From: Geminocystis herdmanii PCC 6308 | GTDB taxonomy: Bacteria > Cyanobacteriota > Cyanobacteriia > Cyanobacteriales > Cyanobacteriaceae | Direction: 5' to 3' | Assembly: GCF_000332235.1 (NCBI RefSeq) | Contig: NZ_CM001775.1 | Location: 1,580,230 to 1,644,229 of the forward strand | Length of the DNA stretch: 64,000 nt | Shown here: positions 20,640-37,487 of the stretch, in pieces | How positions within the stretch are numbered: position 1 is the stretch's first letter | Layout of the letters: each line of letters starts with the position of its first letter | The notes under the pieces: model-generated | The model's input: the letters and a program-made list of their open reading frames with translations, nothing else | Databases searched by the model: none | Told to the model about the DNA's origin: nothing | Translations under genes and position numbers: made by a program

Positions 20640-23600
20640 TTATATCGGGATTGCTGAAAAAGTATTTTGCTCAAGTACAATAGGAGGGAGGATTAAGTGA
20701 TAAGAAAAGCCTTTATTTATCTCTGTTTCTATAGTTAATTGTGCGCCTAATTGTTCGGTTAAAATATTAATTAAACGTACCCCTAACGATCGATTATACT
20801 GCCATTTTTGCCCCTGATTACTACCTTGACCATTATCACTAATAACTAGATGAATTATTTTATTTTGCTCTTGATATAATCTCACAATTATTTTTCCTTG
20901 ATGACTTTGATTAAAAGCGTGTTTAAAACTATTTGTTAAAATTTCATTGACAATTAAGCCACAGGGTATGGCATTTTCAACATTAATATTAATCGGAGTT
21001 CGATCGAAATGTAAAGAGTATTTTACTGTTTGCGGATAGGGATTACAACTATTAAATAATGTCTCAATTAATTGAGTGAGATAATCCCCGAAATTTAACT
21101 GAGCAAAATTATTTGATTGATATAACTTTTCATGAATCATTGCCATACTTTGAATGCGATTTTGACTATTTTGAAATGCTTTGATAATGGTTTCATCTTC
21201 AAAATAAGTAGCCTGTAGATTTAATAAACTAGAAATTATATATAAATTATTTTTGACTCGATGATGAATTTCTTTTAATAAAATTTCCTTTTCTTCTAAA
21301 GATTTTTTGAGCTTAAATTCGGCTTCTTTTCTTTTAGAAATATCCCTAGATGCGGAAATAATTTCGGTAATTTTTTTTGTGGAATTATCAATAACTGGTT
21401 TACTGGTAGTTTCAAACCAAATATAATTACCTTTTTTATTGAGAATACGATAACTATAGGTGATACTTTGATTTCGATCGACCATAGTTTGATAACATTG
21501 ATTAAACAAAAAAATATCATCCCGATAAATCCAATGTTGAGGTAATGTATTAATTAATTCCGAAGGTTGATAACCTAATAATATTTTTACCGATGGAGAG
21601 ACATATAAATAAATACCATCAGGAGAATGACGACTAATCATATCCGTAACATTATTAGCCATCAAACGATAACGAGCTTCGCTTTCCTTTAAGGCTTGTT
21701 GATTTTTTTTCCTTTCAGAAATATCTTTAGCAATGGCGCAATAATAAAATTTTTCCCCATAATTGAAGGGATAAATATTAACTTCTACAGGAATTAATGT
21801 GCCATTTTTATGACGATGAAAAGATTCGATTGTCATCTGTTTTTTTTCTGCTAATGTATTCATAATCTCAAGCCATTTTTTATTGTCATCTTTTTCAAAT
21901 AAAGGATTAATATTTTTTACTTGCATGGTTTTAAATTCTGCGGAAGAATAACCCAAAGTCAAAGTGGCTGCTTCATTGGTATAAAAAAAATTAGTGAATT
22001 TATCTACCAAAAAAACAGAATCCCCTAATTTATCTAAAGTAAATTGTGTTAATTTTAAATTCTCCTCTAATTGTTTCCTCTCAGTAATATCATCATAAGT
22101 CACTAAAACTCCCATAACTTCCCCTTGAGAATTATGTAAAGGCATTCTACAAGTATCTGTATAAATTTCTTTTCCATCACAGATAATTTTTTCAATGACA
22201 TGATAACGAGTTCGATCGTACTCCATCACCCAACGATCCCATTCCCGATATAATTCACTTTGATGGGGAGTAATGGGTAAATCAAAATCAGTTTTTCCAA
22301 TAATACCACGAGTATCAGTACAGCCTATTACATTCGCAAAACTACGATTACACCCTAAATAAACAGAATTACGATCTTTCCAAAAAATTTTCTGAGGTAT
22401 ATTATCGATAATCAGACTGAGAAAATCTTTCACAGATTTTAACTCTTTTGTGCGCTGAGAAACTCTCATTTCTAACTCTTGGTTTAAGAGAATGTAGGAG
22501 TTTTCCGCCTCTTTCCTTTCCGTAATATCCATCGCCATAGATAGCACTATTTTTCTCCCATCAGGCAGTAAACCTAAAGGCATAGTGTGAAAATGCCATA
22601 CCCTTTCTTTTCCCTCTACCGTATGAATGGTATATTCTCCCTCATCTAAAGATTCTTTAATCTGGTATAAATCCTCTATATAATTACTAATTTCGAGCAT
22701 CTTTTCTTTATAGGCTTTTTGCGCCCATTGAGTAATAGTAGGAATCTCTTGGTGAGAATAACCACTAATATCACTCCATGCCTGATTAATTTGTATAACT
22801 TCCCCATCTTCTGCATGAATCATTTGCGGAAATGGTGCATAAATAAACGCATTACGAAAACGCATTTCACTGACTTTTAATTCTTTTTCTATTTTCTTTT
22901 CTTTGTCTATATCTTGAATGGTTGAAATAAAATATTTCGGTTTATTTTCATTATCTTTAACTAAGGAAACATCAAGACGAGTCCAAGTATTTTCTCCATT
23001 TTTTTTGATATACCTTTTCTCTAAAGAATAGGTATTAATTTTTCCTTTTAAAAAATCTTCGAGTAACTTTAAATCTTTTTCTAAATCTTCTGGATAAGTA
23101 ATTTCTTGGAAGGTTAATTGAGTTAATTCTTCTTGACTATAACCTAATATTTGACAGAATTTATTATTGACTTTTAACAGTTTTCCTGTTAAGCTGACTC
23201 GGGCAATACCAATAAAAGCTGATTCAAAGATCGATCGATATTTAGCTTCACTTTCTCTTAGTTTAATGGTCGTATTTTTTTGATAAGTAATATCTGTAAT
23301 TGTGCCAATGATATAGCTTTCTTGTTCAAAAATTTGTTTTTTGATACAAATAGTTTCAAACCAAAGAACTTCTTTTCGATTAGGATGACAATAACGATAA
23401 CAAAATTGACTATTTCCTCCATCTATTAAAGTTTGAGATAATGTATCTAAAAATAATTGTTTATCATTTTCATAAATATTATCTAACCAAAGACTCATTA
23501 TCGGCTTATTAATATGTTCATTTTCACCTAATAATCTTTGAGTTTCTGTATTAGCATAGATTAAATTACCTAAATTATCTAAACGGAATACACCTAAAGG

Positions 23601-24017
23601 TAAATTTTCCGCTAAATCAGCGTATATTTTTTTAATTAATTTAACTTCCTTCCTTAAATTTTGCTCTTTAGTAATATCTTGAAAGGTATAAACAAGATAT
23701 TCCTCATTGAAATTATTAACATATTGAATATTAATAGATAAATAGATATTTTCTCCTTGTTGATTCTCCCTCAAAAAAATGATATTTTTAAGAACTTTTT
23801 TTCTTTTTATCTCCAGTAAATTAGTTTTTAATAATGGTAAAATTTGGTTAATATTTTCTTTACTTTCAATTTCTGCCTGAGAATATTTTAGCATTTTAGC
23901 CAAAGAAGAAGATACATAGATTAATTTACCTTCAATATTTGTAATTAATACCCCTTCATTAATTAATTCTAATAAAATAGGTAAAAATTGAGACATATTT
24001 TCGATCGTACTAACCAT
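20640..24017 (-). CDS. Seven-PAS sensor histidine kinase (HisKA_2 type)
   Basis: A 1125-residue soluble kinase. Seven PAS units follow each other at roughly 110-130 residue spacing (start points near residues 10, 130, 255, 380, 525, 650 and 780), each closing with a PAC-type DITERK or DISERK motif. The kinase core is of the HisKA_2/HWE kind: H-box EIHHRVKNNLYIISSLLNLQ with the histidine near residue 918, N-box NEILTNSFKHAF, and G-box DNGQG ... SLGVRLINILTEQLGA. This class is common in cyanobacterial phytochrome-like and redox kinases. No membrane segment or receiver domain is present, so it is cytoplasmic and needs a separate response regulator, which is not adjacent. No heme- or bilin-binding residue is obvious. 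Confidence 0.9.
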   Translation of the reverse strand: MVSTIENMSQFLPILLELINEGVLITNIEGKLIYVSSSLAKMLKYSQAEIESKENINQILPLLKTNLLEIKRKKVLKNIIFLRENQQGENIYLSINIQYVNNFNEEYLVYTFQDITKEQNLRKEVKLIKKIYADLAENLPLGVFRLDNLGNLIYANTETQRLLGENEHINKPIMSLWLDNIYENDKQLFLDTLSQTLIDGGNSQFCYRYCHPNRKEVLWFETICIKKQIFEQESYIIGTITDITYQKNTTIKLRESEAKYRSIFESAFIGIARVSLTGKLLKVNNKFCQILGYSQEELTQLTFQEITYPEDLEKDLKLLEDFLKGKINTYSLEKRYIKKNGENTWTRLDVSLVKDNENKPKYFISTIQDIDKEKKIEKELKVSEMRFRNAFIYAPFPQMIHAEDGEVIQINQAWSDISGYSHQEIPTITQWAQKAYKEKMLEISNYIEDLYQIKESLDEGEYTIHTVEGKERVWHFHTMPLGLLPDGRKIVLSMAMDITERKEAENSYILLNQELEMRVSQRTKELKSVKDFLSLIIDNIPQKIFWKDRNSVYLGCNRSFANVIGCTDTRGIIGKTDFDLPITPHQSELYREWDRWVMEYDRTRYHVIEKIICDGKEIYTDTCRMPLHNSQGEVMGVLVTYDDITERKQLEENLKLTQFTLDKLGDSVFLVDKFTNFFYTNEAATLTLGYSSAEFKTMQVKNINPLFEKDDNKKWLEIMNTLAEKKQMTIESFHRHKNGTLIPVEVNIYPFNYGEKFYYCAIAKDISERKKNQQALKESEARYRLMANNVTDMISRHSPDGIYLYVSPSVKILLGYQPSELINTLPQHWIYRDDIFLFNQCYQTMVDRNQSITYSYRILNKKGNYIWFETTSKPVIDNSTKKITEIISASRDISKRKEAEFKLKKSLEEKEILLKEIHHRVKNNLYIISSLLNLQATYFEDETIIKAFQNSQNRIQSMAMIHEKLYQSNNFAQLNFGDYLTQLIETLFNSCNPYPQTVKYSLHFDRTPININVENAIPCGLIVNEILTNSFKHAFNQSHQGKIIVRLYQEQNKIIHLVISDNGQGSNQGQKWQYNRSLGVRLINILTEQLGAQLTIETEINKGFSYHLILPPIVLEQNTFSAIPI

Positions 24018-24237: not shown

Positions 24238-24567
24238 CTAATTAATAGCAAATTCCGTAAATGGGCGTTTATATGGTGCATAAAATCCTAAAACAATATC
24301 ATGTTTAGGCACACCAGCTTCAACTAACTCATTAGCAATACCTATTTCTGTGCCATCCCGTTGAATCCAGATTTTGTCTTCTTTTAAGTCCACATGAATA
24401 ATAACTCCATAAATTCTTTTTTGATCTTTCCAACCAATATTTAATACTTGATAATGGTGACGATTTTCATCAAAAAGTAATTGTATTTCAGTATCATTTT
24501 CTATATCATTAACTGAGTGTTTACTGAGAATATCTTGAATTAATTGAGCATAATCTATTCTTTCCAT
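24238..24567 (-). CDS. xisI: XisI family protein
   Basis: A 109-residue XisI protein (RIDYAQLIQDILSKH ... YQVLNIGWKDQKRIYGVIIH ... AGVPKHDIVLGFYAP). In Anabaena, XisI and XisH were found to be needed with the XisF recombinase for excision of the fdxN element (established); elsewhere xisHI pairs are widespread without any excision element, and an addiction-module role has been suspected. It overlaps the end of xisH by 13 bp and is co-transcribed with it. No xisF-type recombinase is in the window. Confidence 0.9.
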   Translation of the reverse strand: MERIDYAQLIQDILSKHSVNDIENDTEIQLLFDENRHHYQVLNIGWKDQKRIYGVIIHVDLKEDKIWIQRDGTEIGIANELVEAGVPKHDIVLGFYAPYKRPFTEFAIN

Positions 24568-24971
24568 AAAACGATCTCCTGTTTAACTGAATCAAAAATT
24601 AATAGTTTAATTTGATATTCCGCTACGGAATTTTGAATAAATTGTCGAGCAAAAAAATCTTCATAAATATCTTTAGATATAGCTAAATATAATATACGTT
24701 GAGGCTCTTCTAGTTTTAATGCTAATCGATAATTAAGAATTTGTCCCAAAGCTAAATGAAATTCTTTTACTGCTGAAGCACCTAAAAATGATTTAATTTC
24801 TACCGCTATTTTTTGTCCTGATTTTTCAGCCGCAATTAACCTTTCTGCCCCTAAATCTATATAAAATTCTACATCATTGATTTTTAAATAAAGAGGATCA
24901 TTTGTAATTTGCCAACCATCTTTTTCCATAGCAATACGGACTGATTGATGATATAAATCTTTAGCTGACAT
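24555..24971 (-). CDS. xisH: XisH family protein (PD-(D/E)XK-like)
   Basis: A 138-residue XisH protein. It has the endonuclease-like arrangement of the family: FYIDLGAERLIAAE then KIAVEIKSF, i.e. an aspartate followed by an E-x-K, which are the catalytic residues of PD-(D/E)XK nucleases. Downstream come KEFHLALGQILNYRLAL and LYLAISKDIYEDFF. It starts at ATG 24971, and xisI begins inside its last codons. The pair stands alone between a sensor kinase and the polyferredoxin gene, so its target is unknown; a nuclease/inhibitor couple is one reading. Confidence 0.9.
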   Translation of the reverse strand: MSAKDLYHQSVRIAMEKDGWQITNDPLYLKINDVEFYIDLGAERLIAAEKSGQKIAVEIKSFLGASAVKEFHLALGQILNYRLALKLEEPQRILYLAISKDIYEDFFARQFIQNSVAEYQIKLLIFDSVKQEIVLWKE

Positions 24972-25127: not shown

Positions 25128-27644
25128 TTAAAGAATGATTTGCCAAAAAAGAACACTTAATGTCATCAAAGAAAAATGTTGCGGTAATAGAGTTTTAATG
25201 GATTGACGAGAAATTTTTTGAGTGAGAATAATAGCACTAATTAAGCCAAAAATAAGGGTAACTCCTTGTAAAAAAGTGATAACCGCAGGATGTGCCACAA
25301 AAATTGGTAAATTACTACCATCTAAGCCAAAAGTTGCCCACGCTACGGGTAAAATTCTTCCCGCTTCTCCTAAACCTAAATGAAGATAGTAGGCTAAATT
25401 AGCACATAATACCAGAGGTAAATAACCATAGGCTAATTCGATAAAAGAACGAGATGATGTTTTTTTCACCTTACCGATTAAACGAATGATACTATAGCCC
25501 ATTAAAGGGATAATCACAGGTAAAATTAACAGCACGATCGAGCTTAAAGAATGTAGCCAAAATTGACTCATATCTAAGTTTAACCCCAAAAGTAGGTTAA
25601 TTTCAGGTAACTTATGGACAAAAACCACATTTAGCAGGAGAAATAATAAAGCAACTTCATAGCTACGAGGTTGATGAGTTGTCCATAATTCAATAGCTGG
25701 AGGGCGTAAATTAAGAGTTACAGAACGATGGGGACAGGCTTTTAAGCACGTCATACATAACACACAATCCCGATTATCCTGTAACTGTGCAGGATGGGAA
25801 TATAAAGGGCAACCAAGGGTTTCTAAACCTTCTCCTTTTTGCACTCCCCCTTTATAACATTGATAAGTAGTACATTCTGCGGAGCAAGTGCCTTGTTGCG
25901 CTCGTAATTCTATGATGGAAAGTTTGGCAAACATACCATTCATGCCCCCAATGGGGCAGAGATAGCGACACCAAAAGCGTCTTTCAAATATAGCGGAACA
26001 AATCATCGCTCCCCCAGTGATAATTAACAGTAACCATGCAGAAAGATAGGCGGTATTCGGCAAATCCCAAAGCTCCTCCCATAATAAAATTAGGGTGAAA
26101 AGCCCAAATAAAAACCATCCTCCCCATTTGTCGGCTTCTTGCCGTGGCCATGACTTCAGTTGTCGGGGAAATAGCCATAATGACAGTTTTTGTGTCACCT
26201 CTCCATAAATCATAAATGGACAAAAACTGCACCACAGTCTTCCTACAAATGGGAAAGTTAGCAAAATTAGAGGCCACCACCACGCCCAAAAAATGTTCAG
26301 CACGAAGTTTTCCTGTCGATTTTGAGGGGCTAAAAACAAAATTCCGATAACTAAGGCAAAAATCCCTAAAGTAAAGCCATAATTGACTCGATCGGGATAC
26401 CAAGGACTGCGAAGAAGACTACGAAATTTTGGATAGGCGTTGAGTAAATTAAAGCGAAATTGTTGCTTTTTACTGCGAGATTGCCAGATGATTTCTTCCG
26501 TTAACTCATTACTGCCTGAAAGTTGTACGATCGCCCTTTCAATGAGGTTCTCCAATTCTCGCAAATTGTTAGGGAAATCATAACCTTGAAGACGGCGCAA
26601 GGCTTCGGGGGTAATTTTAGGTTTATCCACCCTTTGACTACGACAAATTAAACTAATATAATAGTTCACTTGATCTTCTAAATCCGCTTTTCTAACTCGG
26701 AGGGGAGGCACTTTTATCAGATGTTTAACACAGTTATTGACGGAGGAAATCGCTTTTTCAGAGATGATAATTAAACGTGCTTGACAGGTTTTTGTAGAGT
26801 TATTGATATTTCCTGAACGCTCGATCGGGGTATAAGTGTTAGTTTTGAGTAGTTGAATGACAGCATCATTTAATTCTGAGGGTAAATCTTGGATATTATT
26901 GAATACTAAAGTGCCTTTCCCCAAGGCTTCAATTAACCCCAGTTTGCCTCCTACCCTGCCAAATAATTCTGCACCACTGGCTTGTAATTTGGCACAATCC
27001 ACCTTAATCATTGGCTCTCGTCTATAGGATGAGCTATAATGAATTAAACTCGCAAGGTTATCCTTTTCTAATCCTTGTTCTCCGAAAATTATAACAGAAG
27101 CTCGATCGATCGTCGCATTTTTCACCTGTTGCCGTAGCCTCATGGCATAACGACTTTTTCCCACAATACCCCGTTTCGCTTTCGTTACCAGATATGGACG
27201 TAATACAGCTTGTCGTTCTTGTTCAAAATTCAGTTGCGAGGATAAATCAGCGACTTCCTGCGCTAATTGTTGGGTGAATACTTGATTAATTTGAGGGTAT
27301 TGGGAGGCTAATTCTTGAAATTCCACCGACGAAAGACTCCATAATGTTGCCTTGGTTAAAGTTTGAAGGGTGTATTTTGTCGGTTGTTGTAATAGGCATT
27401 CTTTGAAATTGATAAGCGCACCTGAAAGTAAACCAAAATTTTCTTTATTTGCTTGAGTTTCTACTTGCCCTGCTTCTAAAATGTATAATCTTTCTACGGG
27501 TTGATTTGCTAAAATAATCGTTTCCTTTGCCTCGAAAGACACTTTTTTTAATAAAGGCTCGATCGAACTTAGAATCTCATGGGGTAAGCTAGATAAAATA
27601 GTCTGTTTTTTTAACCATGTTAACAAGGAAGAAGAATCATTCAT
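25128..27644 (-). CDS. Fusion of cNMP-binding, sigma-54-type AAA and membrane polyferredoxin domains
   Basis: An 838-residue protein with three parts. Residues about 10-140 form a cyclic-nucleotide-binding beta-roll. Residues about 158-390 match the sigma-54 activator AAA domain but are degenerate: Walker A reads GEQGLEKD (188-195) rather than GExGTGKE, Walker B reads TLVFNNIQDLP (245-255) with the Asp-Glu pair replaced by Asn-Asn, and the GAFTGA sigma-54 contact loop is absent. PPLRVRKADL and FPNNLRELENLI are kept. From about 420 on there are multiple membrane helices and NosR/polyferredoxin-type clusters: CSFC (472-475), CRYLC (559-563), CSAEC...C (587-596), and CVLCMTCLKACP (627-638), the last a complete 4Fe-4S motif. 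No sigma-54 exists in cyanobacteria, so transcription activation is unlikely; a redox or ligand-sensing membrane switch is inferred. Confidence 0.85.
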   Translation of the reverse strand: MNDSSSLLTWLKKQTILSSLPHEILSSIEPLLKKVSFEAKETIILANQPVERLYILEAGQVETQANKENFGLLSGALINFKECLLQQPTKYTLQTLTKATLWSLSSVEFQELASQYPQINQVFTQQLAQEVADLSSQLNFEQERQAVLRPYLVTKAKRGIVGKSRYAMRLRQQVKNATIDRASVIIFGEQGLEKDNLASLIHYSSSYRREPMIKVDCAKLQASGAELFGRVGGKLGLIEALGKGTLVFNNIQDLPSELNDAVIQLLKTNTYTPIERSGNINNSTKTCQARLIIISEKAISSVNNCVKHLIKVPPLRVRKADLEDQVNYYISLICRSQRVDKPKITPEALRRLQGYDFPNNLRELENLIERAIVQLSGSNELTEEIIWQSRSKKQQFRFNLLNAYPKFRSLLRSPWYPDRVNYGFTLGIFALVIGILFLAPQNRQENFVLNIFWAWWWPLILLTFPFVGRLWCSFCPFMIYGEVTQKLSLWLFPRQLKSWPRQEADKWGGWFLFGLFTLILLWEELWDLPNTAYLSAWLLLIITGGAMICSAIFERRFWCRYLCPIGGMNGMFAKLSIIELRAQQGTCSAECTTYQCYKGGVQKGEGLETLGCPLYSHPAQLQDNRDCVLCMTCLKACPHRSVTLNLRPPAIELWTTHQPRSYEVALLFLLLNVVFVHKLPEINLLLGLNLDMSQFWLHSLSSIVLLILPVIIPLMGYSIIRLIGKVKKTSSRSFIELAYGYLPLVLCANLAYYLHLGLGEAGRILPVAWATFGLDGSNLPIFVAHPAVITFLQGVTLIFGLISAIILTQKISRQSIKTLLPQHFSLMTLSVLFWQIIL

Positions 27645-28842: not shown

Positions 28843-31800
28843 CTAATTAGAGATAATAGCAGAAGCTATCTCAAAAGGTTTCTCCCAATGTAAATTATGC
28901 CCTCCTTCTAAAACGATTTTCTTAGCTTGAGACATCGCTAATTGTTGCGCCTCCAAATCCTCTCTACGGTTAAAATTACTTCGATCGCCGTATATAATAG
29001 TTAACGGTAGGGTGAGATTAGATAGTATTTGTAAATATTGCTGACGTTGGATACTATTAACAATACCGGCACGGGTAGTTAAAAGGGGAGAATAGGTAAA
29101 AGTTACCCCATTTTCTACAGGTTTAGTGATACGTTGGGCTAATTTTAAAGCAAAATCTTTATCAAGAGAGGGGGTAGTAGTTAATAATCTTTGCGCCACT
29201 GTTTCCACATCTGCATAAATAGGAGAAGCAGGAGGCGACACCAGATAGTCTAATTGACTGGTAAGGTTAGTTAACTCAAAAGATGTCGTTTCTACAGGTA
29301 AAATTGGCTCAACTAATACTAATTTACTTACCTTTTCAGGGCGCATACTAGCAAATATACTGGTTATCATTGTACCGAGGGAATGCCCCACGATCGAAAA
29401 AGGTTTATCAGTGATTTGATTTGTTAGGCTATCTAAATCAGCGACAAAATCTAGTAGATTATAAGAGCAACCTTTACTTACATGATCAGACTTTCCATGT
29501 CCTCTTAAATCTGGCGCTACTATATAATAACCTTGTTGTGCCATCGATCGAGCTACCATATCCCAACCATAACCTTGATCAAGGATACCATGAACAAGAA
29601 CTATTAAAGGATGCTCTGGATTACCCCAAGTGCAAACACATAAGTTTAAATCTCCCACCTTCATAAATTCTTCTTTCATCTCAATATTGTTATTGAGTTC
29701 GATCGAACTTTCCTCACGGGGTAGGGTATAGTTAAAATCATGGGCTAAATTTGTCGAGACAGGATTAAGCAGGAGGGGTAAGTTTACTTTACGCCAATGA
29801 TTTGCTAGGTTAGCATCTATTGTAGAACGAGAGTGAAAATTAGGATCACCCACTCCCATAGAAGCATTGCGCACTCCGTCAGTCATTCTTTCTCCTTCAT
29901 AGGGATTCAACACAGACTCCGAAAAAGGCACTTCCAAAAAGTCGCACATTTCCCTCATAATCGCTTCAGGATTTGTCACTAATTCTTCATAAAATACTCG
30001 ATAAACCCTAGAAGAATCTAGTTGTGACGTAAAGTCAACAATATTTTCATTACTCTTACGCCAGATTGCCTCCCCAATCTCGTAGGGGTTGCCATGATGA
30101 CTCAATCCTAGCAGTTTATCCATGCGTAAACGAGCAAAAGATTCGATAACCGAGTAGGGATGACGAATTAAGTGGATATATTTTGCATTACTAAACATTT
30201 TTTGTGCATGGAGGAGAGTCGCCATTTCCATACCATAGGTAGGAGACTTATCCACCAAGAGACGATTACCACTTAACTCCTGCAAAATTTTGTATAAGTC
30301 TGGAATAGATAAATTTTCCTCTACCCATTGATTAATTAACGCCTCGCTTTCCTCGGCGGTGATACCTTTTAAATCCATCAAAGTGCGCTGCAAACCCTCG
30401 TCAAGATGAGAGGCTTCCAGTTGTTTTTGTCTTTCTTTGAGGGTAGTAAAGGGGAGTAAATGTAACTCTGGAGGCGAAACCAGATATGGATTTCCTGCTA
30501 ACATTACCCTTAATAATGTAGAACCCGATCGAGGACTTGATAATATAAATGCTATAGGCTGGGGGTTTACTGTCTCTTTTGCATAGGTGATATTTTCCAC
30601 CGAAAGGGGAGAGGATGAGAGGGGGAGAGGGAGAGAGGGGGAGAGGGGGAGAGGGTGAGAGGGGGAAGACTGATGAGTAACAGCAAATTCTTGACTTAAA
30701 TAAGAAGCCAAGGCGGAGATAGTCGGGCGCTCATAAAATTCACGGGGGTATAACATTAACTGTAAGTCAGTCTTTAAATTATTAATTGCCTCCATCACCA
30801 TTAAAGAATCCATCCCTAAGTCAATTAAATTATCATCGGGGTTTATATTTCCGTTAAAGTTTAAGATAAGTTCGATCGACTTGGTAAGATAGTCAACTAA
30901 TAGTATCTCTCTTTCTTCCGTGTCAGCTTGAGTCAACTCCACAAATAAATTATTAGGAGTATTTTCTACCGATTGAGGAATAACATCTTGAATATAAGAA
31001 GATGTGGATAAAGTAGGAAATTTTTGTGCAATTTTTGCCCAATTAATCTTCATTACTCCTAGTTGCGAAGCAGGAGAGTTAATTAAATCTGTTAATAATC
31101 CTATCCCCTCATGGACATTTATTAACTCCATCCCCGAAGCCGTCAAAGAATGTTGTTTCGATTCCGCCATACCTACATCAAACGCACCCCAGTTGATAGT
31201 TAGACAGGGAAGATTTAAACTGTGACGATAACTCGCAAAACTATCTAAGTAACCATTGGCTACTCCATAATTTCCTTGTCCTGCTGAACCCAACATAGAA
31301 GCGACAGAAGAAAAGTTGACGAAAAATTCAACAGGTAAAGTCAGGGAGAGTTGATGTAAATTCCAAGCGCCCAAGATTTTAGGAGACATCACCATTTCTA
31401 ATTTATCGATAGAAAGGGTAGTTAAAAGACTATCAGCTAAGATACCAGCACTGTGAATGATACCCTTGAGAGGAGGCAGACTTGTTTTGATATGTTGGAA
31501 AACTGTCTTTAATTCCTCATAATTAGTCACATCAACGGGGGGGAGATAAAGATTAACTCCTTGCTTTTGCCATGTATCTAATTGTTTTTGTATCGTTACC
31601 GAAGGTTGACGGCGGGAGAGGAGAATTAAATTTTTTGCCCCTTGACTAATTAACCATTTTGCGCATTGGATTCCCAACGCCCCCAATCCTCCACTAATCA
31701 GATAACTAGCCGAAGGTTTGATCTCGATCGAAATTTTCTCAGAGGGGATATTATTAGTTAGACTCTCTTTTTGTTTTTGTCGTAAACGAGGGTAGTAAAT

Positions 31801-34800
31801 ATTTTTACCTCGAATAGCTAACATCTTTTCATCTTCCTCCTTTAGTAAGGGGGGATTAAGGGGGGATTCCTCATCTATTTCATTTTTAGTGAATAGAATT
31901 TTTTGCAGGATAGAAGAAGAGGAGGCAAGATTTTCCATTTCAACATCAATGATACCTCCCCAATATTCGGGATGTTCAAGGGCGATAATTTTTCCTAACC
32001 CCCAGAGACTTCCCCCTTGAGGATTAATTTTTTCTTGGTGAGTCACCCATTGACTTTGATTTGTTAGTAACCATAATTGGGGTTGAGAAGAAGTCATTAC
32101 CAAACTTTGGAGTAAGTTGATAACGGGAAGACACCCTAAATAGTTACTATCTTTCAAGCTGATAGTTTCGTTTTCTTCTTCTTGGTTGCTTAAACCCCAA
32201 CCATAGATAATTAATGAGGAATGAGAAATGTTATTGTTGTCATCAACAAAAGAATCCCCTATTTGACTTCCCCCATTTTTAGGGAAGATTGAGGGGGGTT
32301 GTGAATCCTCAAAATATTGCCATAATAATTGATAGTCTTCCTTTTTATTGCTTAACCAAAAACAGTTATTTTCTTGTCGATATTCTTTACCTTGATAGAC
32401 TAAATAAACCTTGTTTCCTTGAGTTGTCAAATTTTCTGCTAACTTTTCCGTTAAGGCATTATCACTAAAAATTAAATAACTTTTTCCAGAAGAAGAAATA
32501 ACAGGAAACTTATCCCCTTCAATCCACTCAATTTGATATAAGGCTTCTGTTAACGAGGAGTTATCTTTTTGCTTATCATCTCCTAACCAATAACGACTAT
32601 TTTGCCAAGGATAATTTGGTAATTGTACTTTTTCTAAATAGGGGTTATCTTGATGAAAATTAGTCCAATTAATTTTAAAACCTAACTGGTATAAAGTAGC
32701 CAAACTATTTAATAAAGTCTGAAAGGAGGAGTCTTTTTCGAGACTAGGTAAATAGATATACTCTCCATCTAATAATAAATATTTTGCCATACCCAAGAGG
32801 ATAGGCTTTGCACCAATTTCTAATAAAATTTGATAACCATTATTTTTTAAATAGGCGATACTGTCAGCAAATTTGACAGGTTTCATCACATGATTAACCC
32901 AATAATCTGCTGTTGCGATTTCCTCATTAATTACCTTTCCTGTGACATTAGAAATAAGAGGAAGTTGAGGTAAGTTATAATCAATAGTCTCTGCGATTTC
33001 CTTAAATTGAGTCAAGATAGGTTGCATTAAGAAGGAATGAAAACCATGGGATACTGCTAATTTTCTTGATTTGATATTATGTTTCTGCGCTTCAATGATT
33101 ATTTCTTCTAAGGTGTGGTTATAACCAGAAATAACAATATTATTATCTCCATTGATAACAGAAATTTCTACTTGATTGTTATAGGGGTTAATTAATTTTT
33201 CTACTTTGTCTAAAGAGGTAAATAAACATACCATACCGCCATCGAGAGGTAAGGTTTGCATTAACTTTCCTCGATAAGCAATTAATTTTAAACCATCTTC
33301 TAAACTGAAAACTCCTGCTAAAGTGGCGGCGACATATTCTCCGACACTATGCCCCATTATAATAGATGGTTGAATACCATAACTTAACCATAATTTTGCT
33401 AAGGCATATTCGATAACAAATAAAGCAGGTTGAGTATAAAGGGTTTGATTTAATAAGTCGGCATTTTCTTCTTGAAATAAGACTTCGGTGAGGGGTTTAT
33501 CAAGGTATTGATTTAAGATTTGCTCACAATAATCAACTATATTTTTAAAGTAGGAAGAAGTTTGATACAACTGCTCTCCCATTTTACTATATTGTGATCC
33601 TTGCCCTGTAAATAAAAAAGCAATTTGACTATTTTCTACTGTCTTGTTTTCTTTTACTTTTAATTGAGAGAGGATTTCTTCTTTATTTTTCCCAACAAAA
33701 GCGAGTTTATATTTTAAGCTCGATCGAGCGATATTAGAGGTATAACAGATATTAGCAAACTCCTCATCCTTTGCCGTTTCTAAAAACCCTCGATAACGAG
33801 TCACTAAATCTGACAACGCCGTCTCACTTTGCGCACTTATAGTGAATAGTGAATAGTGAATAGTTGATAGTTGAGAGGGAATAAGGGAATCATTCTCCAT
33901 TCTCCATTCTCCATTCTCCATTCTCCATTCTCCATTCTCCTCATCACCGATTATAACATGGGCATTCGTGCCACCAAAACCGAATGAGCTAATTCCAGCG
34001 TAACGAGGTTGTGAAGATTTTTTCCAAGCAATGGATTCTGTAGGAATTTGGATGCGACTATTCTCAATCTTTATATAGGGGTTAAGTTGAGTAAAGTTGA
34101 CTAAGGGAGGGATAACTTCATGACGCAAAGCCAATACTGTCTTGATTAACCCTGCTATTCCTGCCGCCGCCTCCAAATGTCCGATATTTGTCTTTGTTGA
34201 GCCTACCCACACAGGAGATGATTCTTCATCTTGACTAGATAATAATAACTCACTGAGGGAATTTAACTCAATAGGATCACCTAATGCTGTACCAGTGCCG
34301 TGCGCTTCGATATAATTAATCTTATCTTCGGTAATCCCTGCTTTTTCCCATGCAGTTTTGACGACTCTTTGTTGCGCTTTACCTGAAGGCGCGGTTAAGC
34401 CGTTACTTTTTCCATCTTGATTGACAGCAGTGCCGTAAATTACTGCTAATATATTATCTCGATCGAGTATAGCTTGATTTAGGGGTTTAAGGATAACAAC
34501 TCCGCAACCTTCTCCTCTGACATAGCCATCGGCTTCGGCGCTAAAGGTTTTACATTTACTATCTTGCGCCATCATTCCTGCTTTTTCAAAAGTCTCCGTT
34601 AACTCAGGAGAGAGGATAAGGTTAACTCCGCCAACAATGGCTTGACTACACTCACCATTTTTGATACTATTAACGGCTAAGTCGATGGCTACAAGGGAAG
34701 ATGAACAAGCAGTATCGACACTTAAAGATTTTCCTAATAGATTATAACTATAGGATATACGATTAGCAGCGATCGATCCTGCATTACCTGTGCCAGTATA

Positions 34801-37302
34801 AACATTAACATCCCAATCATTTTTTACCTGAAGTTGAGCATAATCGCTACTACTGATGCCGATAAAAACTCCCGTATCGCTACCATTCAAACTATCAAGG
34901 GAAATATTAGCATTTTCGATCGCTTCCTGGGTAACTTGTAATAAAATCCTTTGTTGTGGATCAATATTAACAGCTTCCCTTGGGGATATGTCAAAAAATT
35001 GTGGATCAAATTGGTCATAATTATCAATATAACCTCCACTATAGTTTATATTCGCTCTCTGGCTCGATCGAACTGCAGACTTACCTTGTTGTAATAATTG
35101 CCAAAATTCATCACAATTATTAGCTTGAGGAAAACGACAGGCAACACCAACAATAGCAATTTTTTCTGTTAACTGTGTTGGTTTTTTTTCTGTTATACCC
35201 TCCCCCCCGACAGTTTTTTCTTCTGCTAGATAGTAGGATAACTCAGCAATATTGGGGTAGTCGTAAATGAGGGTGGGAGACAAACGACAATCTAGCCAGT
35301 CTTCCAACTCTCCTGTTAACCTAACCGCTTGTAAAGAATCCAATCCATAATTAATAAAAGGTTGATAGGTGTCAACTTGGGAAGCCTTAACGCCAATGCG
35401 TTGGGCGATATTTTCTTTTAACCAACCCTGTATATTAGATACAGAATGAGAAATGAGTAAATTATCTGCCTGTCTTCCTGTCTTCCTGTCTTCCTGTCGG
35501 CTTCCCCCATTGATAGGGGGGATTGAGGGAGGTTGCTTTTCTTCTTCTCCCTTTTTCCAGATTGCCACAATATCTAAACTACCGTCTAAAAACCCTTGAC
35601 GACAAGCATAACGAGTAATCTTCCCACTAGACGTTTTAGGGATACTTCCCGTTTTTAACAATACTATACTATAAACCTGCAATTCATGATTAAGGGAGAT
35701 CGAGTTGCGAATTTCTGTAAAAATTTGTTGCTTTAAAGTCTCATCTTGACTAATTTTATTTAAAAAAGTGCGTTTTAGCTCAAAGGTTATCACTAAATGC
35801 TCATCTTGTTCTATTTCCACAGCAAAAGCGGCGCCACTTTCTGAATTAAGCGCCTCATGACAAAAAGCCACACTTTCTTCTATATCTTGAGGATAATGAT
35901 TTCTTCCCCGAATAATAATTAAATCCTTTAACCTTCCCGTAACAAACAACTCCCCCTCGCTAATAAATCCTAAATCTCCCGTGCGCAAAAAAGCCCCTTT
36001 TCCATCCTTTGTATAGGCATGAAAAATATTATTAGTAGCCTCCTCTTTTTGCCAATAACCTTGAGTAACACTAGCACCTTTTACCCAAATCTCTCCCACT
36101 TGATTGTCTTCACACACCTCCAAAGTATCAGGATTGACGATTAAACTCTCCAACTCCGAAGCCACCTTACCACTACTAACCAATACCTGAGTATCTGAGG
36201 AATTATCTTCTAGGATAACGATAGAATTTTGCCTTAACGCCTCTGCTGACAAAGTTTTTACCACAGGCGGTTGATGCTTATTCCCCCCTGAAACCATGAG
36301 AGTTGTTTCCGCCATGCCATAGCAAGGATAAAAAATTTCCTGTTTAAAGCCACAATCGGCGAAATATTCGCTAAATCGGGCAATAGTCTCCGCCCTAACG
36401 GGCTCTGCACCACTAAACGCCAGTTTCCAACTGCTTAAGTCTAAATCCGCTTTTTGCTTTTCTGTGATTGAATTGACACACATTTCGTAGGCAAAGTTAG
36501 GTCCTCCTGTGGTGGTAACTTTATACTTAGAAATCCCCTTGAGCCAACGGAGTGGGCGTTGCAAAAAGCTCACAGGTGGCATAACAATGGTGCTAATTCC
36601 TCCGTAAATAGGTTGTAGAATACCCCCTATTAATCCCATGTCATGATAGGGAGGAAGCCAAGAAAAGCAGGTATCACTACTATCAATATTGAAACAAGTA
36701 CGAATTAAGTGAGAATTATGAATTAAGTTGCCATGACTTACCATAACTCCTTTAGGTGCACCGGTCGAACCACTGGTATATTGTAAAAAGGCAAGATTAT
36801 CTTCTTGAATATAAGGGGATTGTTGCCAATTTTTGCCGAAGTCAAGGGGGATATTATCTGTAGGAATACAGGTTATATTGTTATGTTTAGTTAATTTTTG
36901 TTCGATTTTTTGCTTTAAAGATTCTGTGGTGAGGGCAAAAACCGCTCCAGCATCTTTTATGATAGTGTCTAGTCGGGCAAACGATCGATTCTGACGGGGG
37001 GGATAAGCCGGGGTTGCGATGATTCCGGCATAAAGGCAACCTAAGAAAGCGGTAATAAATTCTAAACCGGGTTGATATAATAATAAAGCTCTTTCCCCTT
37101 GCACTTGATGCCCTAATAAATTTTTGGCAGTGCGAGAAAGATGTTGGGCGATGGCTTTTGCTTGGCTATCTAATTGTTGGTAGGTTAAACTTTCCGTCTG
37201 CGCTTCACCGTCGCCTAAGAAGGTAAATATAACTTTATCGGGTTGCGAAACCGCACGTTCTTGAAGTAGATTAACGAAGTTAGAATGTTTAACGTATCCC
37301 AT
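28843..37302 (-). CDS. ols: Olefin synthase, type I polyketide synthase (FAAL-ACP-KS-AT-KR-ACP-ST-TE)
   Basis: A 2819-residue megasynthase that turns fatty acids into terminal alkenes. Domains in order, with approximate residues: fatty acyl-AMP ligase (1-590, SGSTGAPKGVMVS near 179); ACP1 (GLDSLQA near 654); ketosynthase (from 715, active Cys in DTACSSS near 866, EAHGTGT, NIGHLEAAAG); acyltransferase (GHSVGEYVAA near 1320); ketoreductase (ISGGLGALG near 1866); ACP2 (LGMDSLMVM near 2165); PAPS sulfotransferase (SSPRSGSTLLR near 2257); thioesterase (GHSLGT near 2642). This matches the Ols enzyme of Synechococcus PCC 7002, in which C3 sulfation triggers decarboxylative elimination. Start at ATG 37302 (MGYVKHSNFVNLLQERA), matching the PCC 7002 N-terminus; 23 upstream codons in frame look non-coding. 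Several interdomain linkers carry short tandem repeats also found between genes. Confidence 0.95.
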   Translation of the reverse strand: MGYVKHSNFVNLLQERAVSQPDKVIFTFLGDGEAQTESLTYQQLDSQAKAIAQHLSRTAKNLLGHQVQGERALLLYQPGLEFITAFLGCLYAGIIATPAYPPRQNRSFARLDTIIKDAGAVFALTTESLKQKIEQKLTKHNNITCIPTDNIPLDFGKNWQQSPYIQEDNLAFLQYTSGSTGAPKGVMVSHGNLIHNSHLIRTCFNIDSSDTCFSWLPPYHDMGLIGGILQPIYGGISTIVMPPVSFLQRPLRWLKGISKYKVTTTGGPNFAYEMCVNSITEKQKADLDLSSWKLAFSGAEPVRAETIARFSEYFADCGFKQEIFYPCYGMAETTLMVSGGNKHQPPVVKTLSAEALRQNSIVILEDNSSDTQVLVSSGKVASELESLIVNPDTLEVCEDNQVGEIWVKGASVTQGYWQKEEATNNIFHAYTKDGKGAFLRTGDLGFISEGELFVTGRLKDLIIIRGRNHYPQDIEESVAFCHEALNSESGAAFAVEIEQDEHLVITFELKRTFLNKISQDETLKQQIFTEIRNSISLNHELQVYSIVLLKTGSIPKTSSGKITRYACRQGFLDGSLDIVAIWKKGEEEKQPPSIPPINGGSRQEDRKTGRQADNLLISHSVSNIQGWLKENIAQRIGVKASQVDTYQPFINYGLDSLQAVRLTGELEDWLDCRLSPTLIYDYPNIAELSYYLAEEKTVGGEGITEKKPTQLTEKIAIVGVACRFPQANNCDEFWQLLQQGKSAVRSSQRANINYSGGYIDNYDQFDPQFFDISPREAVNIDPQQRILLQVTQEAIENANISLDSLNGSDTGVFIGISSSDYAQLQVKNDWDVNVYTGTGNAGSIAANRISYSYNLLGKSLSVDTACSSSLVAIDLAVNSIKNGECSQAIVGGVNLILSPELTETFEKAGMMAQDSKCKTFSAEADGYVRGEGCGVVILKPLNQAILDRDNILAVIYGTAVNQDGKSNGLTAPSGKAQQRVVKTAWEKAGITEDKINYIEAHGTGTALGDPIELNSLSELLLSSQDEESSPVWVGSTKTNIGHLEAAAGIAGLIKTVLALRHEVIPPLVNFTQLNPYIKIENSRIQIPTESIAWKKSSQPRYAGISSFGFGGTNAHVIIGDEENGEWRMENGEWRMENDSLIPSQLSTIHYSLFTISAQSETALSDLVTRYRGFLETAKDEEFANICYTSNIARSSLKYKLAFVGKNKEEILSQLKVKENKTVENSQIAFLFTGQGSQYSKMGEQLYQTSSYFKNIVDYCEQILNQYLDKPLTEVLFQEENADLLNQTLYTQPALFVIEYALAKLWLSYGIQPSIIMGHSVGEYVAATLAGVFSLEDGLKLIAYRGKLMQTLPLDGGMVCLFTSLDKVEKLINPYNNQVEISVINGDNNIVISGYNHTLEEIIIEAQKHNIKSRKLAVSHGFHSFLMQPILTQFKEIAETIDYNLPQLPLISNVTGKVINEEIATADYWVNHVMKPVKFADSIAYLKNNGYQILLEIGAKPILLGMAKYLLLDGEYIYLPSLEKDSSFQTLLNSLATLYQLGFKINWTNFHQDNPYLEKVQLPNYPWQNSRYWLGDDKQKDNSSLTEALYQIEWIEGDKFPVISSSGKSYLIFSDNALTEKLAENLTTQGNKVYLVYQGKEYRQENNCFWLSNKKEDYQLLWQYFEDSQPPSIFPKNGGSQIGDSFVDDNNNISHSSLIIYGWGLSNQEEENETISLKDSNYLGCLPVINLLQSLVMTSSQPQLWLLTNQSQWVTHQEKINPQGGSLWGLGKIIALEHPEYWGGIIDVEMENLASSSSILQKILFTKNEIDEESPLNPPLLKEEDEKMLAIRGKNIYYPRLRQKQKESLTNNIPSEKISIEIKPSASYLISGGLGALGIQCAKWLISQGAKNLILLSRRQPSVTIQKQLDTWQKQGVNLYLPPVDVTNYEELKTVFQHIKTSLPPLKGIIHSAGILADSLLTTLSIDKLEMVMSPKILGAWNLHQLSLTLPVEFFVNFSSVASMLGSAGQGNYGVANGYLDSFASYRHSLNLPCLTINWGAFDVGMAESKQHSLTASGMELINVHEGIGLLTDLINSPASQLGVMKINWAKIAQKFPTLSTSSYIQDVIPQSVENTPNNLFVELTQADTEEREILLVDYLTKSIELILNFNGNINPDDNLIDLGMDSLMVMEAINNLKTDLQLMLYPREFYERPTISALASYLSQEFAVTHQSSPSHPLPLSPSLPLPLSSSPLSVENITYAKETVNPQPIAFILSSPRSGSTLLRVMLAGNPYLVSPPELHLLPFTTLKERQKQLEASHLDEGLQRTLMDLKGITAEESEALINQWVEENLSIPDLYKILQELSGNRLLVDKSPTYGMEMATLLHAQKMFSNAKYIHLIRHPYSVIESFARLRMDKLLGLSHHGNPYEIGEAIWRKSNENIVDFTSQLDSSRVYRVFYEELVTNPEAIMREMCDFLEVPFSESVLNPYEGERMTDGVRNASMGVGDPNFHSRSTIDANLANHWRKVNLPLLLNPVSTNLAHDFNYTLPREESSIELNNNIEMKEEFMKVGDLNLCVCTWGNPEHPLIVLVHGILDQGYGWDMVARSMAQQGYYIVAPDLRGHGKSDHVSKGCSYNLLDFVADLDSLTNQITDKPFSIVGHSLGTMITSIFASMRPEKVSKLVLVEPILPVETTSFELTNLTSQLDYLVSPPASPIYADVETVAQRLLTTTPSLDKDFALKLAQRITKPVENGVTFTYSPLLTTRAGIVNSIQRQQYLQILSNLTLPLTIIYGDRSNFNRREDLEAQQLAMSQAKKIVLEGGHNLHWEKPFEIASAIISN

Positions 37303-37487
37303 GTATATAGAATTAACCAGAGTATTAAGTATTTTTATAATTATTAAGCAATTCTTAACAATTAACAACAATCAATCTTATCATCTTAACAGATTTCGAC
37401 ACGTTGACTGTTGATAGCTGATCCCTCTTTCTTTTACTTAGGGTTTGCGCAGGGGAATCATAAGACTATTTCACCACTTTTCTTATA

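Follow-up and report, generated by a model that had tools for sequence, protein, structure and literature searches.

A cyanobacterial protein family joining a degenerate sigma-54-activator-type AAA domain to a membrane polyferredoxin: a candidate membrane electron carrier

Introduction

NapH, NosR, and RdhC share a membrane module of four membrane segments with two CX3CP motifs, to which NapH and NosR, unlike RdhC, add two further 4Fe-4S motifs; NapH has been proposed to accept electrons from quinol, and it has not been established what the CX3CP motifs form in RdhC (all according to the available part of PMC5928378). Sigma-54 and its activators were absent from all 29 cyanobacteria examined, as stated in the available part of PMC3162934. 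In this study, we analyzed a stretch of 64,000 nucleotides from Geminocystis herdmanii PCC 6308 (the window), in which a single frame of 838 residues on the minus strand (positions 25128–27644) joins, in this order, a Crp-like domain, a sigma-54-activator-type AAA+ domain with its lid, and a membrane polyferredoxin. The frame, coordinates, and domain order had been given in a reading made from the letters alone (hereafter, the original prediction), and were borne out by the frame listing and Pfam; the strand had not been stated there. The fusion is an unusual arrangement built from already known modules. We tentatively read the protein as a NapH/NosR-type electron carrier that is linked to the membrane quinones and would be set by a nucleotide-binding, non-hydrolyzing AAA domain, and we regard this function as possible rather than probable.

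A search of the open-access literature by title or start of abstract found no study of the fusion family. The annotations met for its members were cyclic-nucleotide-binding protein, nitrogen assimilation regulatory protein, and, for a fragment, sigma 54-interacting transcriptional regulator. Annotation as a regulator would misfile a redox protein family that is widespread in cyanobacteria.

Occurrence of the fusion and its three classes

Among 60 genomes near the source genome (source included), 45 gave a match at 1e-20, and in 42 of these, by row count, one open frame spans the AAA domain and the membrane half. In the other three, the gene was cut by contig ends (G014 and G024) or was a standalone membrane half (G031). 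Because single open frames running from the AAA domain into the membrane half recur in near genomes, the fusion is genuine and conserved and is not a product of chance or of a frameshift. A survey of the domain architecture across genomes, proposed as a check of the original prediction, likewise showed its recurrence, with matches, some of them partial, in 72 of 291 genomes sampled across cyanobacteria (source included) and none in 219. Of 199 stretches of genome_contigs that matched the pattern, 191 encode a relative at 1e-3, and the titles of the 80 best, which were retrieved, all bear cyanobacterial names. Two of 72,556 plasmid records searched, from the cyanobacteria Aulosira and Pseudanabaena, span 80% or more of the protein. 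Beyond cyanobacteria, the fusion was sought in this plasmid collection only, and restriction to cyanobacteria is not claimed.

When the 72 genomes were sorted by identity and extent, 57 had class A (the window type), three of which (G041, G124, and G240) also had class B; class B occurred alone in another 5, class C in 9, and a fragment in G315. Class B paralogues are about 40% identical to the window protein, and class C was found in genomes of 2.3–3.7 Mb. Sequences were compared in a set of 157 rows, i.e., 164 selected frames minus 7 duplicates with the window included, from which a cut copy of the window gene (L001) and a fragment (L171) were kept out. Sets A1 and A3 contained 81 relatives and the window, drawn from 84 representatives with the incomplete frames L078, L147, and L149 excluded; A3 additionally contained L166. 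The unrooted tree built from the membrane half has one group of ten class B rows (support, 97) and another of six class C rows (support, 100), the rest being class A. Rooting with L166, L177, and L178 failed because these outgroups have very long branches, and the tree names no class as ancestral.

A few members were broken. In the fragment L171 (G315), a 256-residue frame joins the Crp-like start to the C-terminal membrane part, i.e., it carries an internal deletion, and the reading frames of L147 (G240, class B) and L149 (G288, class C) are split in two.

Membrane iron-sulfur module

Twelve cysteines (C472, C475, C559, C563, C587, C591, C596, C612, C627, C630, C633, and C637) were all present in 156 of the 157 rows, the sole exception being L149, in which five are missing and the frame is broken. 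The pairs C472/C475 and C559/C563 lie at the ends of membrane helices, and the other eight lie in the loop 587–637, where they form one canonical 4Fe-4S motif and one atypical set. The complete CxxCxxCxxxCP motif that the original prediction placed at 627–638 was confirmed, and the "several Cys pairs" that it listed as kept were indeed present, although that list was too short. The twelve cysteines would be enough for two predicted 4Fe-4S clusters and the two membrane motifs, with C587, C591, C596, and C612 as probable ligands in the 2x4Fe-4S region.

The AlphaFold2 model of the window protein (mean pLDDT, 88.9) contains helices at 415–552, and by sequence and model the two CXnCP motifs sit on four helices. 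Loops on the AAA side carried on average 1.8–11.7 Lys and Arg residues, and those on the opposite side 0–1.3 (151–157 rows); the long Fe-S loop also averaged 9.3 Asp and Glu residues. This charge pattern places all the conserved cysteines on the side of the membrane where the N-terminal AAA domain lies, most likely the cytoplasm. The ferredoxin loop was modelled poorly, with pLDDT below 50 at 587–604 and 612–621, and the AlphaFold2 model holds no cofactors.

Pfam detected two Fer4_5 stretches in the membrane half and Fer4 at 624–640, the latter below its cut-off. The membrane half matched the NapH/MauN model TIGR02163 at 8.2e-12 with 45.2 bits against a cut-off of 213.05, and the NosR model at 2.4e-4, far under the cut-off. 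No listed NCBIfam model fitted the whole window protein, the models for sigma-54-activator AAA domains and NapH matching parts of it far under their cut-offs. Like the NapH/NosR/RdhC module, the fusion has membrane helices with two CXnCP motifs, followed, as in NapH and NosR, by cysteines of the 4Fe-4S type. It differs from that module in its first motif, which is CX2CP (the second is CX3CP), in its atypical first cluster motif, in its extra C-terminal helices, in its junction to a pseudo-AAA domain, and in scores far below the family cut-offs. The FMN-binding extracytoplasmic domain of NosR was also not found in the window protein by Pfam. Standalone polyferredoxins also exist: L166, from G031, is 27% identical to the window protein in the membrane half, and L184, from Deinococcus ficus, is 27% identical to the class B protein of L132; neither protein has an AAA or Crp-like domain.

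Fold and degenerate motifs of the AAA domain

Residues 155–389 of the AlphaFold2 model matched FleQ with a Z score of 25.0 (227 aligned residues; rmsd, 2.4), and the matches to FleQ, NtrC1, and NtrX ranged from 24.4 to 25.0. We aligned 13 family members with four proteins of the activator type taken from plasmid records; the annotation is sigma-54 regulator or NifA for three of the four, and the other is unannotated. In all 13 members, the GAFTGA loop was deleted, as the original prediction had held, as was the FREDLYYR segment, where sigma-54 activators carry their arginine fingers; the Walker B Glu was also lost. Among the 156 rows covering the sites, none had the catalytic Walker B Glu (position 250), and all had the Walker A lysine, K194. 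The replacement of the Walker B Asp-Glu by Asn-Asn was predicted correctly (Asn249-Asn250). The prediction also held that the Walker A lysine context had been lost; the preceding glycine is changed (GEQGLEKD against the normal GxxGxGK), but the lysine itself is present.

The classes differ in these motifs. Class A has a Walker A of the GEPGLEKDN type, with the glycine before the lysine still present in 20 of 137 rows, and an Asn-Asn Walker B, a pair found in 131 of the 157 rows overall. In class B, Walker A is nearly intact (GxGKT in all ten rows that cover it, with Ala frequently in place of the first Gly), and Walker B is Asp-Asn in nine of ten rows. Class C combines a class-A-like Walker A with Asp-Gln, Asp-Cys, or Ser-Gly at Walker B. 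A class B plasmid copy outside the 156 rows, L183, has Glu-Asn at Walker B, so the catalytic position again lacks Glu. A second Pseudanabaena plasmid (L185:5097-5411) carries a class-B-type AAA fragment of 104 residues, the one annotated as a sigma 54-interacting transcriptional regulator.

Judged from these residues, the AAA domain is a pseudo-ATPase: it retains the activator fold and the phosphate-binding lysine, but the residues needed for hydrolysis are gone, as are GAFTGA, which makes the sigma-54 contact, and the capacity to bind DNA. The invariance of K194 favors retained nucleotide binding. With the sigma-54 activators FleQ, NtrC1, NtrX, and PspF, the fusion thus shares the AAA fold with its lid and the Walker A lysine; it differs from them in lacking the catalytic Glu, the GAFTGA loop, the arginine-finger segment, and a DNA-binding domain, none having been found in the window protein by Pfam, and its C-terminal part is the membrane module. 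The best PDB sequence match to the window protein was VpsR (2.7e-17), an activator-type AAA protein whose GAFTGA carries a deletion and which is probably not sigma-54 dependent (available part of PMC3162934); VpsR is a soluble regulator binding c-di-GMP, according to the PDB title, whereas the fusion is a membrane iron-sulfur protein.

The source genome gave no match to PF04552, the sigma-54 DNA-binding domain, other sigma-54 domains not having been searched. With the sigma factor apparently missing and the residues above gone, the AAA domain cannot act in sigma-54 activation, in agreement with the original prediction. Over 386 cyanobacterial genomes, 11 matched PF04552 at 0.001, and two exceeded the cut-off, one through a 207-residue frame in G165 and the other over profile positions 25–72 in G258. 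The G165 frame (L179, G165:C1:411956-412339; 2.3e-16), in a genome of the window's order, was the only strong match among the 386 genomes. It contains ITRRTVTKYC, which we take to resemble an RpoN box, and no full-length rpoN was seen in the L179 locus.

Selection on the AAA domain and dispensability of the Crp-like domain

Between the window gene and L036, dN/dS was lowest in the lid, at about 0.05, followed by the AAA core (0.08; 0.137/1.752) and the membrane half (0.11), and it reached 0.40 in the Crp-like part, which was again the least constrained against L009 and L010; these values, from three pairs, were obtained by a simple counting method with dS partly saturated. By this estimate, the AAA domain in the window's line is under purifying selection about as strong as that on the membrane part. 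The original prediction had called the inactive AAA domain "reused", and since the selection on it is comparable to that on the redox part, this description fits better than one of a decaying domain.

The Crp-like region was absent in 16 of the 157 rows, including the split or contig-end frames L147, L149, and L099. In class C, it was absent in eight of nine rows, the ninth (L139) being filled there only in the stop-to-stop frame, and neither of the two class C proteins that were scanned gave a cNMP domain in Pfam. Cyclic nucleotides are normally held in cNMP domains by a Glu and Arg motif. The window domain has neither residue, with Ala76 and no Arg in 90–95 (columns by alignment only); by the same alignment columns, class A has Glu76 in 8 of 137 rows, Arg somewhere in 90–95 in 34, and Glu76 together with Arg91 in none. 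The fusion resembles the Crp/Fnr family in having an N-terminal Crp-like domain followed by a long helix, and differs from it in these missing residues and in the helix-turn-helix, which was not found in the window protein by Pfam. The Crp-like domain is the most dispensable part of the protein and is optional; because it is loosely constrained and sometimes absent, the conserved unit consists of the pseudo-AAA domain and the membrane redox module.

Gene context

The largest neighbor groups of the class A loci were an ABC ATPase group (12 loci) and ArsR-like (11), efp-like (8), and accB-like (8) groups, all named presumptively from their sequences. Of 11 class B loci, 5 have a cysteine synthase gene on the same strand no more than 1.5 kb downstream. 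None of 93 comparison loci does; these are all the loci belonging to neither class B nor class C with enough sequence, including some near copies and the standalone L166. None of eight class C loci had a cysteine synthase gene downstream. In both class B plasmid records, this gene begins 5 and 17 bases past the fusion gene, giving a class B total of 7 of 13 loci. The plasmids of Pseudanabaena galeata (L176) and Aulosira laxa (L183) also carry petC and psbA within 8 kb of the class B gene, accompanied by DsrE-family and rhodanese genes in Pseudanabaena and by ArsP and Rrf2 genes and what we take to be a MerR-like gene in Aulosira. By their gene content, these plasmid loci look like a mobile low-oxygen or sulfide photosynthesis island. 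At L138 (class B), nifH lies about 1.8 kb downstream. Presumed chlL- and chlN-like genes lie upstream at L150, a presumed psbA-like gene upstream at L135, and what appears to be a heterodisulfide-reductase-like gene set at L136/L137. The class B context suggests a low-oxygen or sulfide physiology. The available part of PMC5061849 makes no mention of polyferredoxin, 4Fe-4S, cysteine synthase, or cyclic nucleotide, and a search of PMC9337993 for neighbor gene names and polyferredoxin found none.

Proposed function and alternative explanations

As a quinone-linked carrier, the protein would pass electrons between the membrane quinone pool and two predicted cytoplasmic 4Fe-4S clusters, which would in turn give them to, or receive them from, a soluble partner, the direction being possible either way. 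The AAA domain would bind nucleotide without turnover; acting by way of its lid and of the junction to the first membrane helix, it would switch the redox module on or off. The Crp-like domain, which appears unable to bind cAMP in the usual way, would be an optional extra input. In favor of this function, we count the twelve cysteines, the similarity to NapH and NosR, the loop charge pattern, the AAA fold, the retention of K194, the selection on the domains, and the class B context; from these we infer the cluster content, quinone link, nucleotide binding, gating, electron route, and physiology. The family would then be a candidate electron entry or exit point at the plastoquinone pool, and it offers a clear case of an AAA+ motor that appears to have lost catalysis and its partner sigma factor with the phosphate-binding lysine kept under selection. 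A more specific version, in which the protein is a one-protein valve that makes electron flow between plastoquinone and Fe-S acceptors in the cytoplasm depend on the cellular ATP/ADP state, with one branch recruited to low-oxygen or sulfide photosynthesis islands, is in our estimation unlikely.

Several observations weigh against the quinone-linked carrier. The membrane model had no Foldseek match to solved structures at E ≤0.001 and none with a Z score above 6.2, so the NapH/NosR-type assignment rests on sequence motifs, and the first of these is CX2CP and not CX3CP. Nucleotide binding is deduced from one lysine and the fold, and in the window protein Glu stands in place of the Gly before K194 and Asn in place of the Walker B Asp, changes that should each weaken the binding of Mg-nucleotide. 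Four of the nine class C rows lack residues 226–235 and have Ser-Gly at Walker B, and the class C protein L146 falls under the Pfam cut-off for Sigma54_activat. Because the family is absent from 219 of the 291 sampled genomes, its job is not universal. The class A loci have no constant neighbor that names a partner, and the class B context need not extend to class A.

The main alternative is that the protein senses redox state, or oxygen or sulfide, at the membrane; here the Fe-S module would read the quinone pool or a gas, the pseudo-AAA and Crp-like domains would form an output that binds a regulator, and electron transfer would serve sensing only. Such a sensor would agree with soluble domains that belong to regulator types, with the low-oxygen and sulfur genes near class B, and with an AAA domain conserved without catalysis. 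However, conservation is about equal in the membrane half and the AAA domain, the motifs of the membrane half match those of electron-transfer proteins, and the Crp-like part, the expected signaling partner, is dispensable. We consider a sensor somewhat unlikely.

The protein might instead supply electrons for metal uptake or cofactor assembly, as do FtrD, which stands beside the FTR1 iron permease, and CcoG, which serves oxidase assembly. In Azospirillum, the gene of a distant standalone relative overlaps one of the FTR1 family, a FUR-domain gene follows the class C fusion gene of L143 after 7 bases, and genes that we take to be metal-uptake-like lie beside class C L144 and L145. FTR1 is also present in 49 of 57 class A genomes against 38 others (raw association p 2e-23, uncorrected for kinship). 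However, FTR1 occurs without class A in those 38 genomes, the fusion gene and FTR1 are about 1.6 Mb apart in the source genome, and the Azospirillum relative is very distant. We consider this role improbable. A similar raw association was seen for nifH, present in 28 of 57 class A genomes against 18 others (p 6e-12, kinship likewise uncorrected). As candidates for a required partner of class A, both nifH and FTR1 were rejected, since neither is required, and the source genome has no nifH.

That the protein still regulates transcription independently of sigma-54, in the manner of VpsR or TyrR, is highly improbable despite the match to VpsR, given the absence of a Pfam DNA-binding domain and the tethering of the AAA domain to a multi-pass membrane module.

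Feature coordinates and neighboring genes

Table 1. Positions in the window of the fusion gene and its parts
Feature	Coordinates	Strand	Basis
Whole gene, 838-aa Crp-like / pseudo-AAA / membrane polyferredoxin fusion	25128..27644	-	Frame, Pfam, relatives
Degenerate Crp-like cNMP_binding domain, residues 35-116	27297..27542	-	Pfam 2.6e-9, over cut-off
Long helix linking Crp-like and AAA domains, residues 118-151	27192..27293	-	AlphaFold2 model
Sigma-54-activator-type AAA core, residues 160-293, GAFTGA loop deleted	26766..27167	-	Pfam Sigma54_activat 6.1e-15, fold match, alignment
Altered Walker A GEQGLEKD, residues 188-195, lysine K194 retained	27060..27083	-	Alignment columns
Altered Walker B GTLVFNN, residues 244-250, Asp-Glu changed to Asn249-Asn250	26895..26915	-	Alignment columns
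AAA lid, residues 316-386	26487..26699	-	Pfam AAA_lid_14 5e-12
First membrane cysteine motif CSFCP, residues 472-476	26217..26231	-	C472, C475 in 157/157 rows
Second membrane cysteine motif CRYLCP, residues 559-564	25953..25970	-	C559, C563 in 157/157 rows
Atypical four-Cys stretch C587, C591, C596, C612	25809..25886	-	First three Cys in 157/157 rows, C612 in 156/157
Canonical 4Fe-4S motif CVLCMTCLKACP, residues 627-638	25731..25766	-	CxxCxxCxxxCP; four Cys in 156/157 rows
C-terminal helical membrane extension, residues 661-838	25131..25664	-	AlphaFold2 models, charge pattern

A 139-aa frame at 25984–26403, inside the fusion gene on the same strand, was taken to be a shadow frame. Downstream of the fusion gene, two overlapping small genes lie on the same strand at 24238–24971; they gave nothing above cut-off with NCBIfam, and we take the pair to resemble xisH and xisI. 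The region 20640–24017 encodes a sensor kinase of 1125 residues with seven PAS (sensory_box) stretches. At 28843–37371, there is a multi-domain frame of 2842 residues, presumably a polyketide synthase that starts with an acyl-activating part and ends with an alpha/beta-hydrolase.

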